A DNA stretch of 53,475 nucleotides from Deltaproteobacteria bacterium (GTDB lineage Bacteria; Myxococcota_A; Polyangia; JAAYKL01), in contig JAFGQN010000022.1 of NCBI GenBank assembly GCA_016935665.1, positions 1-53,475 on the forward strand, written 5' to 3'. The stretch's first letter is position 1; each line of letters opens with the position of its first letter. Below are positions 23,884 to 30,595 of this stretch, piece after piece. A model generated the notes under the pieces. That model had not been told where the DNA came from. It made no database searches and was given only the letters and a program-made list of their open reading frames with translations. A program made the position numbers and the translations under genes.

Positions 23884-24579
23884 CTATGCGGCCGTACTCT
23901 TCTTTTCATACTGCAAAGCCGATGGCGATTGACATCCCACAATGGCCGGCGCCTCATGGATGAGTTCATCGTTCTCAAGAGCGGCCACCATAAACAGAGC
24001 AAAATCAATGCGCCGTGTCAAATCGCTTTTCAGTGCGGGGTCTCCCACATGACGCCGCCAGATGGGCAACCCCTGGCTTTCGCCCTCTTCCAGATTGCTG
24101 CCGCGCACCACTGTCCAACGCGTGCTGCTTTTAAAAATCCGATTACACGCCTCCACCTGATCATCCAGCTCCACCATTCGAATCAAACGTGCGATACTGC
24201 CAAACAGTTTTACAAAAGTTTTAAACCGCCAGGAGTACACATCCTTGCCGTCTTTGGTAATGTGCCACCCGCACGAAAAAATAAGCCGCGCATTTGACGG
24301 CGCATAATCCATCACCGCCTGCGCCGTACCCGATGAATACTGCTGAATGCCCCAGGGTGCCAAAACCGTTAGCACGCCGTCGCATCCGTCCACGGCTTTG
24401 CGAATCACTTCCCTATCATTGGTGGCTCCCGGAATTACAGTTATTTTGTCAGCGAAGCGGACAAGCTTTTGCACACTCTGTTCACGGCAAACGCCCACCA
24501 CTTCATATCCGCGGTCCAGACAATGCTGCACCATATACTGCCCCAACTTGCCGGACGCCCCGACAATACATACTTTCAT
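23884..24579 (-). CDS. NAD(P)-binding, NmrA/SDR-like epimerase-type protein
   Basis: This 231-residue protein starts MKVCIVGASGKLGQYM, a Rossmann GxSGxxG motif at residues 7-13. GVCREQSVQKL follows in the position that selects NADP over NAD. It is an atypical short-chain dehydrogenase related to NmrA and to flavin reductase/epimerase proteins. No YxxxK catalytic pair is evident, so it may bind a dinucleotide as a sensor or reduce an unknown substrate. The ATG at 24579 has AGGAGAGG upstream; a longer frame to 24702 is discarded. It lies 106 bases after the giant CHAT gene on the same strand and may share its transcript. Confidence 0.75.
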   Translation of the reverse strand: MKVCIVGASGKLGQYMVQHCLDRGYEVVGVCREQSVQKLVRFADKITVIPGATNDREVIRKAVDGCDGVLTVLAPWGIQQYSSGTAQAVMDYAPSNARLIFSCGWHITKDGKDVYSWRFKTFVKLFGSIARLIRMVELDDQVEACNRIFKSSTRWTVVRGSNLEEGESQGLPIWRRHVGDPALKSDLTRRIDFALFMVAALENDELIHEAPAIVGCQSPSALQYEKKSTAA

Positions 24580-24685
24580 TTTCCCTCTCCTGTATCTCTT
24601 CCAAAACAAACGACTCCCCAAAACAACAATCCCGGACTGCGCAAATGTAACCAGTGATATGAAGACTGACAACCAATGGAGGCAT

Positions 24686-27600
24686 CTATGTCCATTTCGC
24701 AACGACGGTGGTGACTTCCTTGAGGCGCTCCTTTATTTTGCTGTCGGCGACGCCCTCCAGCCGTTTGAGGCTTTGAAGCAGGGAATCCTTTTCGCGCTGG
24801 GTAACGCCACTACCGCCGGTAAGGGCAAGGGTGTATGCTTCCAATGCGGTTTGGGCGGAACCGCGGCCGGTAACCGCGTAACGAACCAGCGCGGCATTGG
24901 CGGCGCTTCCCGGCGCCCATTTATCGTGAGCGCCCGCAGCGCTCTGTTCGATTTGATTCAGTTCGAGTGGGTCAATCTCCTTGCCCAGCAGCAGCTGCAA
25001 CTGTATTTTATTGTCCAGGGGATAGTACAGATTACTCGGTTTTAATTTTGCAGCTTTAGTGTAGGCCTTGAGCGCCTCAGCTAAAAATTTCGAACGTTTC
25101 TCAGTATCATCTCTACAGTCAGCCATCCGTCGCAGGGTAGCGCCTTCCAAACAATAGCGTTCGGACGACGGACGGATATGACACAGTTCCCTGATACGAT
25201 CGAGTGAACGTTTAAACAGGGCATCCACCTCTTTTCTTTCAGATTTGTTTTCGAGTTTTCTGTATAGCTCGGCCGCCTGTTTGGCTTCCAGGTTGGCCAG
25301 CTGTTCCACCGCTTTTAACGGGGTATTCGACAAAGTGAGTGCCTGTTTATACCATTTTATGGCCTTTTCCAAAGCGCCCAATTCACTGTAGGCATCGGCA
25401 ATGACAGTGAGCAACTCTCCGTTCTCACGCCACTCAACGGAATCGGTCTCAAGCTCTGTTTCGGTCAATCGCTTCAGCTCATTTAAGATGTACGCTTTCT
25501 GCTCCGGTTTCGGGTCGCGACTGCGGCTCACAAAGTCTGATACATAGTCGACGAGTTCATCCACGGCCACAAACCGCTGTTCTCTGTCTTCACTGCCACT
25601 TTCCAAACCGTCATACGGGAGAACGAAACCCGGGTAACCGTACACCTGATAGGCACCCCAGGTAACGTCATTTCCGGTACATTGACTATAGGTCTTTTGA
25701 CGTGCACCGCGAACCGCCCGCATCAGGTTCTCGCCCTTCAGCATGGCGGAATAAAAGTTCTCAGCGAATTCGCCGGCGGCCTTGTCTCCCACAGCCCATC
25801 CGGCCACCACCACCACTTTAACGCCCATTTCGATAAGGCGTTTGGAAACACTCGCCGCGAGGTGCCCCGGATATTTGAGATGACTGAATTTTCCAAGGTG
25901 ACAGCAATTGAGAAAAACAATGGACGGCACGGCAGTCATATTTTCGAATTCGGCAGCGCCTAAAAATCGATTGCCGGCCAGCACCACACCCGTCTTTTTA
26001 GCGTCCAGACCATCGAAGGCCCCATGGGCTGCCACGTGCACAATGTCGTATTCTCCCTGATACAGGGATTCAAAACAATCATCGGCATCCCGTCCGATGA
26101 CTCGATTGACATCCAAACCGCGCAGGTGCAACAGGTTGGCCACCTTTTCCGCTTCCGCTTTGGCGGAAGGCAATGGCGGATTCACCATGGCGGGCTCTCC
26201 AATCACCAGCGCACGTCGACTGGCCGAACGACGGGGATTGGCGCGGCTCTCCACGCTCACATAATTGCGCAGTATGCCCACCCGCACACCAATTGGACGC
26301 TGTCCGTCCCTGCCGGGGTCCAGCAGTTCCCAGGGAATCTGCGCCGTTTGGGGATGCAGCTGGAGCACCAAATCCGGTGACGCTTCGGCGCCCTCCAGCA
26401 TGTCGTAGGGCAAAAGGTAGTTAAACAGGGTTCGCGCCACATCGCGGTCTGCCTGCATCGCTCGTTCCAGCAGGCCATCCACATGCGCCCATTGAATCTC
26501 GCGAACCGTGGGTTCCACCCGCGCCATCTCAGTGGTTAACTCATATTCCAGATTATTGTGTGCATCTTTGTTGATGCGGATGCGGCGATGCCACCCGGAG
26601 CCATATGGTGTACGGGGCCGAAACTTCAAAGCGCCGGATCGGTGCTGCAGTTTGGGCAAGGCGGTAACGGGATATTCGCTGCTCTTTGAAATGCGAAGAG
26701 CAGCCCTCGTGGCCTCGATGGCTTTATCCTGGAACAACTCTGAAATTTCTATTGTTGAAAGGCACACCCTGGCGCCCAAACCTTCTGCTCGCAACCGGGC
26801 ATTGGTATACTGTGCGGCTTCCACATACGCGCGCAGCGAATCCTCCACCGACAGGCGCGTTGCGCCGAAGGTGCCAATCAGCACGCCACTCACCCCCAGC
26901 TCGCACGGGTCATCTCCGGTCTGTGGCAAATTGGCCAAAGCGTATTCCATCATAGCATGACGCAGCGATTCCTCCAGGCTGGTACGTGTCAGTGTGCCCA
27001 CCTGTCCCAAACCGGATACCACCACACCTTGCAATTCGCGTTTCTTTTCGTAAATACGCACCGTTCCCAAACGCCCCACATAGCGATCCAGTCGATGATC
27101 CCGAGCCATGGCGCCATCCAGCCCCTGATTCAACGTGGCCTCCACGCTTACCAGCGGATCTCCTTCGTAATGCCCCACCAGTACCGGGAAAGTGCATTCT
27201 CTAACGTCGCCATTGAACACCACCAGCGAAATAGGCTGCGTTGTGGCGAGGGGCGATGTGGGCGGTTTTCCCATCAGAGTGGAGATGACATCATCGGTAC
27301 TGGGGAAATACCTGGGGTGCGCATCTTCGTTTTCAATGCGTATTTCCCGCAGTTCTTCATGTTCACCGCGGAACGCAACGGGCATTTTTTTAGAGAGTCT
27401 GGCGGTGGTGCCCTGCGAAAGCAATTCCATGTATCCGTCAAAACTCTCTTCATGGTTGGCGATTTGACCGTGTTCCGCTGCCACATAATACGTGCAAACA
27501 CCGTCAAGCCGTCCGAAATCCCAAAGAACCGTTCCATCGCCATGGCTGGAATAACGAAAATGAACTTCCCCGTTTTTTGAAACGACCATCTCTGCGGGGG

Positions 27601-29827
27601 TATCCGCTGCATGACCGGCCACGTACACCATGTGCTCCATGTCCACCGCACTTCTGTCGAGCTTCGCTCTGAAGAGTTGAGCCTTTTCCAACGTATCGCC
27701 TTTGGGCAAACAGTTTGTAATGGGCGCCCACCGCGTTGCATCCAGCAGATTGGTGTCTCCTTTAAAAGGCAGCAATTCTATCATTCCCGGAAATTCGCGC
27801 ACGACGCCGGTGAGTTCATCCAGATTATGACGGATGGCCACCACTGCCAGCTGTTTCATCAACGCGTGTTTTTTTGTGAGTACCTGCGCCGGCACAAATG
27901 ATCCCTGATTGGGTGTGCCCATCATCAGCAGACGTCCACCGCGTTCGGTGAGTTGTTTCCACAGTTCCGGTCTGTCCATAATGAGTGTCCGTGCCACCAG
28001 TCCCCCCATGGAATGGGCGATCAGTCGAATGGGACGGTTATGCCGCTTCAGTTCCGCTTCGATTTCGATGGCCAGCAACCGGGCGGATTCCATCATGGGC
28101 TTCCGCCAGTCATAGGGAAACGGGCGAACGTTGTAATGAGGCGTCAGACGGTGAAACAGCTTTTCATAGGCCATGTCCACCAGTGCTTCGGCGGCAACAT
28201 CCGGTTTGTCTATCTGCAGCGGCGCCATGCCTTTCCACGCCAATTCAAAAATGGAAATCCAGTGTCGCTCCCCATCCACCGCCAGGTGCGACCCCATGAT
28301 GCCGGGAATCAGGAATACGGTGGGCAGGTTTTCCCGATATAATACGGGTTTGATAGACCGAACCGGCGCCGTGCCGCGAAGTCCTCCGTAGGGTTCTGCT
28401 GCCGACAGGGGCCGAAATCCAGTCTCATTGCCATCCACCAGCCAATCCACAATCCGACTTCGGGTTTCGGGTTCCTTGAAGTACGAGAAATGGTTGGCTC
28501 TGGGCGCCCGATAATAAAAGCCACGGGCTTTTTTGCGGGGGACGCCGCGAAACATGGACTTGCTGTCCACCACAAAATCATTGTCTTCGTGGTAGTACAA
28601 ATCAGAGAAAAAGCTCTTCACCCGATCAAAAAAACCACCCCCTTCCACGTCTCCGGCAATGACAGCCAAATCTTTGCCCCGAGGCGTGGCCACATTGAGA
28701 AACGGAATAAAACCGTGTGCATTCTCACTCCCTTCCAGGGGGGGCATCATCGCCTGGATGCCCGGTAATGCGTCCGCTCTGGTTCGGGTGGCCACAATCG
28801 CCATGGCAATGGCTTTAATGAATTCGAACCAGAGGGCGTTTGGCCCCATTAGCTTTCCTGCCACGGAGAGAATGACATTCAGGTATTTGTCGAGCCGGTC
28901 TGAGGCCAGCAGTGTTCCTGCCGCAGGCGCCGCCACTCGGGCGAAACGCTCCACTTCGAAATCACCACGCACGTTGGCCAACAGCGCCAGTTCTTCGCGA
29001 ATGTGCGCATACTGCTCACCTTTGAAGTACGCGTCAACATGACGGTTTTCCCACGGATAACGGCAAAGCAGGTCTCCCACCAAACCACCGCGCGAGTGGC
29101 TCAGCAGGTGCACTTTGGCGCCACTTTGAATCGCCTCTGCCAAATGGATGGCATTGAGCGCGGGGCTGCAGGTCACCGTATGCTGCTCCAATGCGAACAT
29201 GTTTTCGATTTTGTAGGCATTTATCATACGGTCCCAATCACGGGATTCAAACAGATTCGCGAAACCACCACGGGTACTGCTGAACGTGCCGTGGATGAGC
29301 ACCAGAATGGGATTGTCGGTTTTGATTTTACCATCCTGCCTGTCGGTCAGTTCTCCTTTGGCGTTCAGGCGATACAGGCCCGGATTGGGAATGTGCTTTT
29401 CCTCGATATTCCGGATAATCTTTGGAAAAGCAAAATCCATCGCCGCTTCTGCCGCTTTTAAACCGATGCGTTTGACCGCTTCCAGAGCTATCTCCTGCCC
29501 CCCTCTGTACCCGCTGATGGTCCTGCGGGTGGGAATCGCAAACCATCCGTCGTCACCTGGCGATCGCTGCGCAACTTCACAGTTCGAAACGATGTCTTCG
29601 GCGCGAACGAGCTCGACGATGCCGTCTTCCCAGGTTAGTTCAAAAACATCGTTCGGGGAACAATACAGTTCATGTTCTTCTTCAACGCCCCTGGAACGCG
29701 CCATTCGCACATCGGTGCTGTCCATTACCTGTGCACCCAGAATATTCGCAAAATCTCCCAGACCACTGTCACTGCCTGAGATTTCGCGCGCACTGCCGGG
29801 AAGCCTGAGTTTAATCCGGTCTGTCAT
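24686..29827 (-). CDS. Giant protein: two alpha/beta-hydrolases, CHAT (caspase-like) protease and TPRs
   Basis: This 1713-residue soluble protein has no signal peptide. Residues ~170-465 form an alpha/beta-hydrolase with LIHGTFSS (177-184) and nucleophile elbow SHSRGG (Ser245). Residues ~495-800 are a second, LCAT/PGAP1-like hydrolase with PGIMGS (508-513) and AHSMGG (Ser606). Residues ~860-1050 are a mixed alpha/beta region with SGLGQVG, possibly macro-like. Residues ~1150-1405 are a CHAT domain with the catalytic pair HVAAHGAF (His1268) and LNCCH (Cys1309, by alignment to NxC). The last ~240 residues are TPR-like helices (LEKAIKWYKQAL). CHAT proteases are relatives of separase and caspases and act in bacterial signalling and defence. 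The start has GAAAGG upstream. It is divergent from the small protein at 30221. Confidence 0.88.
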   Translation of the reverse strand: MTDRIKLRLPGSAREISGSDSGLGDFANILGAQVMDSTDVRMARSRGVEEEHELYCSPNDVFELTWEDGIVELVRAEDIVSNCEVAQRSPGDDGWFAIPTRRTISGYRGGQEIALEAVKRIGLKAAEAAMDFAFPKIIRNIEEKHIPNPGLYRLNAKGELTDRQDGKIKTDNPILVLIHGTFSSTRGGFANLFESRDWDRMINAYKIENMFALEQHTVTCSPALNAIHLAEAIQSGAKVHLLSHSRGGLVGDLLCRYPWENRHVDAYFKGEQYAHIREELALLANVRGDFEVERFARVAAPAAGTLLASDRLDKYLNVILSVAGKLMGPNALWFEFIKAIAMAIVATRTRADALPGIQAMMPPLEGSENAHGFIPFLNVATPRGKDLAVIAGDVEGGGFFDRVKSFFSDLYYHEDNDFVVDSKSMFRGVPRKKARGFYYRAPRANHFSYFKEPETRSRIVDWLVDGNETGFRPLSAAEPYGGLRGTAPVRSIKPVLYRENLPTVFLIPGIMGSHLAVDGERHWISIFELAWKGMAPLQIDKPDVAAEALVDMAYEKLFHRLTPHYNVRPFPYDWRKPMMESARLLAIEIEAELKRHNRPIRLIAHSMGGLVARTLIMDRPELWKQLTERGGRLLMMGTPNQGSFVPAQVLTKKHALMKQLAVVAIRHNLDELTGVVREFPGMIELLPFKGDTNLLDATRWAPITNCLPKGDTLEKAQLFRAKLDRSAVDMEHMVYVAGHAADTPAEMVVSKNGEVHFRYSSHGDGTVLWDFGRLDGVCTYYVAAEHGQIANHEESFDGYMELLSQGTTARLSKKMPVAFRGEHEELREIRIENEDAHPRYFPSTDDVISTLMGKPPTSPLATTQPISLVVFNGDVRECTFPVLVGHYEGDPLVSVEATLNQGLDGAMARDHRLDRYVGRLGTVRIYEKKRELQGVVVSGLGQVGTLTRTSLEESLRHAMMEYALANLPQTGDDPCELGVSGVLIGTFGATRLSVEDSLRAYVEAAQYTNARLRAEGLGARVCLSTIEISELFQDKAIEATRAALRISKSSEYPVTALPKLQHRSGALKFRPRTPYGSGWHRRIRINKDAHNNLEYELTTEMARVEPTVREIQWAHVDGLLERAMQADRDVARTLFNYLLPYDMLEGAEASPDLVLQLHPQTAQIPWELLDPGRDGQRPIGVRVGILRNYVSVESRANPRRSASRRALVIGEPAMVNPPLPSAKAEAEKVANLLHLRGLDVNRVIGRDADDCFESLYQGEYDIVHVAAHGAFDGLDAKKTGVVLAGNRFLGAAEFENMTAVPSIVFLNCCHLGKFSHLKYPGHLAASVSKRLIEMGVKVVVVAGWAVGDKAAGEFAENFYSAMLKGENLMRAVRGARQKTYSQCTGNDVTWGAYQVYGYPGFVLPYDGLESGSEDREQRFVAVDELVDYVSDFVSRSRDPKPEQKAYILNELKRLTETELETDSVEWRENGELLTVIADAYSELGALEKAIKWYKQALTLSNTPLKAVEQLANLEAKQAAELYRKLENKSERKEVDALFKRSLDRIRELCHIRPSSERYCLEGATLRRMADCRDDTEKRSKFLAEALKAYTKAAKLKPSNLYYPLDNKIQLQLLLGKEIDPLELNQIEQSAAGAHDKWAPGSAANAALVRYAVTGRGSAQTALEAYTLALTGGSGVTQREKDSLLQSLKRLEGVADSKIKERLKEVTTVVAKWT

Positions 29828-30220: not shown

Positions 30221-30595
30221 ATGACAACACAACGTGCGGCGCAAATCCTGGTTGACGCAACGAAGGAGAAGCTGGGCAGAGCGCTTCTGGCCACAGACAT
30301 TTGGGTCAAAGGAGAACGAGAATCCCTGGCGGGTCACAACCCACAACCGGAGGCCACGCGGTTATTCGATGAGCTGAACGATTTCATTGAATCCAATTTA
30401 AAGAAAAGCAATTTTCCCAAACTGAATCGCTACTTCCTTATCGAACTGGAAGACGACAACACTGTTGTAATCGTAAATCACGGCAAAGTACTTCAGGGCA
30501 TGCTGGTCAGTCTGCGCAACGCCAATATGGGCAGCGTGGTTTCCGTGGCGATCCCCCATCTGATTAAAACATGGAAATCCGCCTCTTTTGGATAA
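30221..30595 (+). CDS. Small soluble protein of unknown function, possibly roadblock/LC7-like
   Basis: This 124-residue protein starts MTTQRAAQILVDATKEKLG with a G-run ribosome site 6 bases upstream. The first half is helical. The second reads YFLIELEDDNTVVIVNHGKV, then LQGMLVSLRNANMGSVVSVA, a strand-strand-helix pattern that resembles roadblock/LC7 domains, but no signature motif proves it. It has no transmembrane segment. It shares its upstream region with the giant CHAT protein and is transcribed the other way, so it may be a regulator or partner of that protein; this is inference from position alone. Confidence 0.55.
   Translation: MTTQRAAQILVDATKEKLGRALLATDIWVKGERESLAGHNPQPEATRLFDELNDFIESNLKKSNFPKLNRYFLIELEDDNTVVIVNHGKVLQGMLVSLRNANMGSVVSVAIPHLIKTWKSASFG

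Follow-up and report, generated by a model that had tools for sequence, protein, structure and literature searches.

A conserved bacterial protein family joining two lipase-like hydrolases, a CHAT protease and a TPR-S region in one chain

The window analysed here, a stretch of 53,475 nucleotides from a Deltaproteobacteria bacterium (contig JAFGQN010000022.1), encodes a single 1713-residue protein composed of five modules in the order hydrolase 1, hydrolase 2, aminopeptidase-N/macro-like domain, CHAT protease and TPR-S region, and on sequence evidence this catalytically intact protease-lipase fusion is a real, conserved family. We propose that it acts as a zymogen-like cytosolic effector of conflict or cell death, in which sensing by the TPR-S and macro-like parts would lead through the CHAT protease and cleavage at arginines to the freeing or activation of the lipases, a reading on which our confidence is evenly balanced. 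Judged by the genomic context of relatives, a role in conflict or cell death fits best; the window copy is itself a lone gene with a putative activity.

The gene lies at 24686..29827 on the minus strand, as do all of its features given below, and forms a single open frame with an ATG start, preceded by an AAAGG-type motif about 10 nt 5' of that start; the same 1713-codon frame is also seen in the source genome. A Pfam search of the protein with family cut-offs applied, AlphaFold models and fold matches agree with the first-pass annotation that two lipase-like hydrolases, a CHAT domain and TPRs share one protein, although that list of four parts was incomplete in having missed the aminopeptidase-N/macro-like domain (~865-1053). 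The AlphaFold models drew on 65 homologous rows for residues 1-850 and 63 for residues 851-1713, with mean pLDDT of 89 and 87, respectively. No transmembrane segment was predicted in the 1713-residue protein by a simple hydropathy scan, NCBIfam contains no model specific to it, and PADLOC returned only weak similarities, to BovA (across the CHAT part) and PbeC; RNA families were absent from the window.

A single-sequence scan of genome contigs retrieved no relatives, and a profile of hydrolase 1 did, at no fewer than 544 places in public genomes. The best 80 of these at least 544 relatives, together with the window copy, make up the 81 sequences compared in detail. On uncut contigs the order of N-terminal segment, hydrolase 1, hydrolase 2, macro-like domain, CHAT and TPR holds in nearly all of the best 80, the weaker HMMs missing the N-terminal segment or the TPR in some of these loci; the gene in one record from a cyanobacterium (L067) seems to be split or to carry a frameshift. 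On a tree of the best 80 and the window copy, members come from at least nine named phyla, and the window copy forms a group together with G204 and a record from Lyngbya. Relatives are found throughout the phylum sample, as well as on plasmids of Alpha- and Gammaproteobacteria; no copy was found in 13 other genomes of the same order or in phage records, and E. coli, probed with the DNA of the Buttiauxella copy only, gave no match. The first-pass annotation did not know the architecture as a described system, and in a search limited to open-access papers without their supplements we likewise found none describing the five-part fusion, although a listing of the family may exist elsewhere.

The chain begins with a beta-rich N-terminal segment (residues 1-150; 29378..29827), delimited from the AlphaFold model and conservation and containing the conserved R46 and R108. 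Hydrolase 1 (DUF7379; residues 160-470; 28418..29350), assigned by Pfam, alignment and AlphaFold, carries the triad S245-D417-H446, with the nucleophile Ser245 codon at 29093..29095 and a DUF7379 match over residues 175-258 (E 8.7e-27, 94.7 bits, cut-off 33). Its probable identity as an alpha/beta-hydrolase rests on Pfam, the order of the triad, a profile match to hydrolase 2 over a short stretch and weak sequence matches to lipases. Hydrolase 2 (residues 498-812; 27392..28336), assigned by Pfam, fold match and alignment, is LPLA2/LCAT-like with the triad S606-D764-H786, the nucleophile Ser606 codon lying at 28010..28012; the LCAT match covers residues 565-721 (E 4e-12, 46.5 bits, cut-off 21), and the model aligns to lysosomal phospholipase A2 (LPLA2) with Z 28.0 over 291 residues at 2.6 Å, matching also the type VI phospholipase effector Tle4 (Z 25.4) and LCAT. 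Hydrolase 2 as a recent internal duplicate of hydrolase 1 was considered and rejected: only 56 columns align in a profile comparison, so the two share a superfamily and are not recent duplicates.

The first-pass annotation correctly named Ser245, Ser606, His1268 and Cys1309, which are kept in homologues, and the addition of D417/H446 and D764/H786 completes both triads. S245, D417 and H446 are present in 81 of 81 sequences, a conservation that is partly selected for because the 80 loci were picked by hydrolase-1 similarity (the other modules were not selected for), and D764 and H786 are also kept in 81 of 81. Ser606, however, is found in only 74, its loss in the other seven relatives representing about six changes on the tree, so, as far as conservation can tell, the family seems unable to do without hydrolase 1 but partly able to do without hydrolase 2. 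Loss of catalytic residues in homologues, which the first-pass annotation had regarded as evidence against its proposal, is thus seen in neither hydrolase 1 nor CHAT and is limited to this serine in 7/81. The Ser-less copies (L051, L048, L053, L059, L094, L108 and L086) have Gly, Ala or Cys in its place and retain the Asp and His.

The aminopeptidase-M17-N/macro-like domain (residues 865-1053; 26669..27235) is placed by fold matches, with Z 16.8 to the LAP N-domain and 15.8 to macroH2A1.1, and by the sequence of relatives, since Peptidase_M17_N (PF02789) lies above cut-off in one of them (L040); as modelled, it is no closer to a macrodomain that binds ligand than to the N-domain of an aminopeptidase. 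The CHAT protease domain (PF12770; residues 1129-1397; 25637..26443), supported by Pfam (E 1.9e-29, 103.5 bits, cut-off 24), fold and alignment, contains the dyad H1268-C1309 (codons at 26024..26026 and 25901..25903, from the alignment), which is kept in all 78 relatives whose sequence reaches that region, and the top structural matches of its model are separase and Csx29 (Z 20-21). W1344 and D1348 are invariant in the CHAT of relatives, the two residues belonging to a W-x-V-x-D pattern that CHAT domains elsewhere commonly have as well. The TPR-S region (residues 1421-1710; 24698..25567) is defined by Pfam (PF20308 over residues 1487-1606, E 3.9e-7, 31.0 bits, cut-off 27.6), AlphaFold and a fold like that of the ASK1 regulatory region, the match to the ASK1 central regulatory region reaching Z 21.2 over 241 aligned residues at 2.7 Å. 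A sensing role for NAD-derived signals has reportedly been predicted for TPR-S, as has its presence in ASK kinases.

Three arginines stand out in the family as conserved positions in poorly conserved surroundings. In an exploratory, post hoc analysis, isolated conservation was scored at all 1713 positions as the conservation of a position minus that of its surroundings, and R46, R820 and R108 ranked 1, 2 and 4 (first, second and fifth when unweighted); the chance of Arg at three of the top four positions is ~0.001 by a hypergeometric estimate, likewise post hoc. The Arg46 codon (29690..29692) encodes Arg in 81/81, followed mostly by Gly, Ala or Ser; the Arg108 codon (29504..29506) in 78/81, followed by Gly in 71; and the Arg820 codon (27368..27370) in 77/81, followed mostly by Gly, Ser or Ala. 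Separate realignment of both regions gave Arg in 81/81, 77/81 and 77/81 for R46, R820 and R108. In the N-terminal segment, the model is of low confidence around both R46 (block pLDDT 63 for residues 41-50) and R108 (70 for 101-110); R820 lies in a variable, weakly conserved linker from hydrolase 2 to the macro-like domain (residues 812-864; 27236..27394; block pLDDT 88, 74 and 65 over 811-840). Separase, the closest fold to the CHAT part, cuts after Arg. From their sequence setting, R46, R108 and R820 look like candidate Arg-specific cleavage sites bracketing the hydrolases; they could instead be structural. R1070, another isolated Arg (74/81) between the macro-like domain and CHAT, is not followed by a consistently small residue.

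Genes next to the relatives were called with an in-house codon-usage model and then searched with Pfam, and most of the resulting evidence comes from relatives at ~30% identity to the window protein. Caspases (Peptidase_C14) occur at 23 of the 81 loci, always on the same strand and at most two genes away, filling 24/179 adjoining same-strand slots versus 0/343 other slots (p 2e-12, kinship ignored), and TIR domains at 17 of the 81, with 22/179 versus 6/343 (p 1e-6, kinship again ignored). Because these loci are related, they do not count as independent (Hydrogenophaga alone accounts for eight of those with a caspase), and parsimony on the tree gives 9 changes for caspase presence and 10 for TIR presence. 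The GHG and D-x-C-H-S-G motifs are found in 24/24 neighbour caspases, two of which read DTCHSG. Most relatives have no caspase or TIR neighbour. Other neighbours include nSTAND1 and SIR2 near the Ensifer copy, a TIR-Roc-COR-LRR protein at L120 with TIR also in the next gene, a Tle1-like phospholipase gene adjoining the closest relative among the best 80 of at least 544, and type I restriction and Fic genes adjoining the Azotobacter copy. As separate observations, a further CHAT protein, apparently carrying a signal peptide, is encoded directly upstream of the Lyngbya copy (L042:7757-9370), and two cyanobacterial loci (L053:7560-9437 and L059:16967-18901) encode, two genes past lipase-CHAT, a caspase fused to an apparent further alpha/beta-hydrolase (HSWG nucleophile elbow).

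A Pfam scan of ten neighbours of the gene in the window returned ordinary metabolic genes, including phosphoglucomutase, YceI and NmrA-like ones, which were for that reason rejected as functional partners. Among these ten, no TIR gene, no adjoining caspase or other partner gene, no cas gene (Cas7-11 included) and no vWA, MoxR or VMAP gene was found. The NmrA-like NAD(P)-binding protein is encoded directly downstream on the same strand (23884-24702, minus), where the listed TTG start is probably too early, and a 124-aa ORF (30221-30595, plus) diverges from the lipase-CHAT gene. Across the 8.2 Mb source genome there are 16 caspase (Peptidase_C14), 3 CHAT and 8 TIR matches, the caspases being over cut-off, so partners could act in trans. 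The role in defence or self-killing that the first-pass annotation had proposed thus draws support from relatives, with their caspase, TIR, nSTAND1, Roc-COR-LRR, murein-hydrolase and Tle1-like neighbours, but none from the metabolic surroundings of the window copy, and its description of a 'self-contained' device is doubtful because many relatives sit within apparent multi-gene operons.

In the mechanism we propose, a signal would be received by the TPR-S region, with the macro-like domain perhaps taking part. This signal may be a ligand that binds there, a nucleotide that TIR or SIR2 enzymes derive from NAD, or a partner protein, for instance a STAND ATPase. The signal at TPR-S would switch on the CHAT protease, and either CHAT or, at loci that also encode a partner caspase, that caspase would then cleave after R46 and R108, before the hydrolases, and after R820, behind them. 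Cleavage would remove the N-terminal segment and free both lipases, which might then attack membrane phospholipid, so that the cell is killed or arrested. We infer the order of these events, the cleavage at arginines, the phospholipid substrate and an outcome in cell death or phage defence.

Within this effector reading, the question is whether the chain cuts itself. A widespread, so far uncharacterised family of self-processing pro-lipases, with sensor, Arg-specific CHAT and two lipases in one chain and release of the lipases by three cuts at its own arginines, seems to us possible rather than probable. That the CHAT domain of the same conflict effector targets other proteins, the lipases being an independent, allosterically gated arm and the arginines structural, is on the unlikely side, and it draws on the TPR-CHAT proteases Csx29 and separase, both of which cleave separate substrates. 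It also gains from the pTM of 0.90 for the model of residues 1-850, by which a single rigid body seems to comprise both hydrolases and the N-terminal segment, and from the near-invariant Gly after R108, which resembles a structural turn; R820 and R46, however, stand alone in poorly conserved stretches, unlike the core of a fold.

Two further readings were weighed against our proposed effector. The protein would be a housekeeping or stress-linked enzyme of lipid remodelling, whose protease and TPR govern turnover or localisation and kill nothing, if the metabolic neighbours in the window were a guide, and so would the Paracoccus yeei copies, which are set among sugar-catabolism genes and adjoin an SBP_bac_3 membrane protein; but with caspase, TIR and murein-hydrolase neighbours enriched, copies on plasmids, a spread over at least nine phyla and a patchy presence (0/13 other genomes of the order), we judge this improbable. 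The Paracoccus neighbour is a conserved protein of ~1090 aa with likely membrane segments, directly upstream at L036, L037 and L038, and spans two frames at L038. Quite improbable, too, is a lysis module, in which membrane opening by the lipases would give leaderless, endolysin-like murein hydrolases encoded alongside access to the wall; the result would be lysis of the cell or of its kin, not a block on phage. Amidase_2-like genes at 10/81 loci, GH108 adjoining the Rhizobium CHAT copy and an M15 gene with LysM at another locus, all lacking an evident signal peptide on visual inspection, would fit such a module; eight of the ten amidase loci, however, belong to one genus, Hydrogenophaga, and most loci are without a murein hydrolase.

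Several known systems share parts of this design. The type III-E CRISPR TPR-CHAT protein (Csx29, Craspase) and separase have the same clan CD core, His-Cys dyad and helical-repeat region, but they are without lipases, and the TPR is N-terminal in Csx29 and C-terminal in the window protein. LPLA2/LCAT and Tle4 share the fold and the Ser-Asp-His triad of hydrolase 2, yet they are secreted or injected, whereas the window protein is fused to a protease and has no predicted membrane segment. In Thoeris II/IV, TIR-made nucleotides activate macro-domain and caspase-like effectors (PMC12847820); the likeness lies in the macro-like fold, the caspase-like protease and the TIR genes beside some relatives, and the difference in the window copy having no TIR neighbour and in the effector, which here consists of two lipases fused to CHAT and TPR-S. 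In the VMAP/vWA-MoxR conflict systems, the gene for a caspase-superfamily peptidase invariably has an alpha/beta-hydrolase gene as its neighbour (Kaur, 2020, PMC7159879), whereas the window protein fuses protease, hydrolases and TPR-S. Protease cleavage activates a second effector in the Hachiman/AVAST nuclease-protease pairs and in canu (PMC12799240), but there the effector is a nuclease on a separate gene and here it would be two lipases in cis. One bacterial protein joins a metacaspase, an amidase and a GDSL lipase (Asplund-Samuelsson, 2012, PMC3501461), a single rare case from other protease and lipase families, in contrast to the constant five-domain family described here.

Protease-gated killing is a theme common to bacterial and animal immunity. 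In the cases known to us, the target of the protease is a pore or nuclease on another chain; in this family one conserved polypeptide, found in at least nine phyla, unites the protease with a sensor and two lipases and has predicted cut sites. If true, a self-processing pro-lipase would be a one-protein analogue of the protease-to-gasdermin step, and the ASK1-like TPR, together with caspase, TIR and NLR-like neighbours, would offer a link to the bacterial origin of animal cell-death parts.

The modules also occur elsewhere in rearranged form, as hydrolase 2 with trypsin and as hydrolase 2 with M17N and CHAT; at L041:7740-10469 a trypsin-like peptidase replaces CHAT as the fusion partner of hydrolase 2. 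A lipase-free copy consisting of macro-like domain, CHAT and TPR-S is adjoined by TIR-nSTAND1 genes and a GH108 muramidase, and in the source genome (G000) contig C49 carries, at ~920-2524 (L131, L135), TIR and CHAT in one 1128-aa frame.
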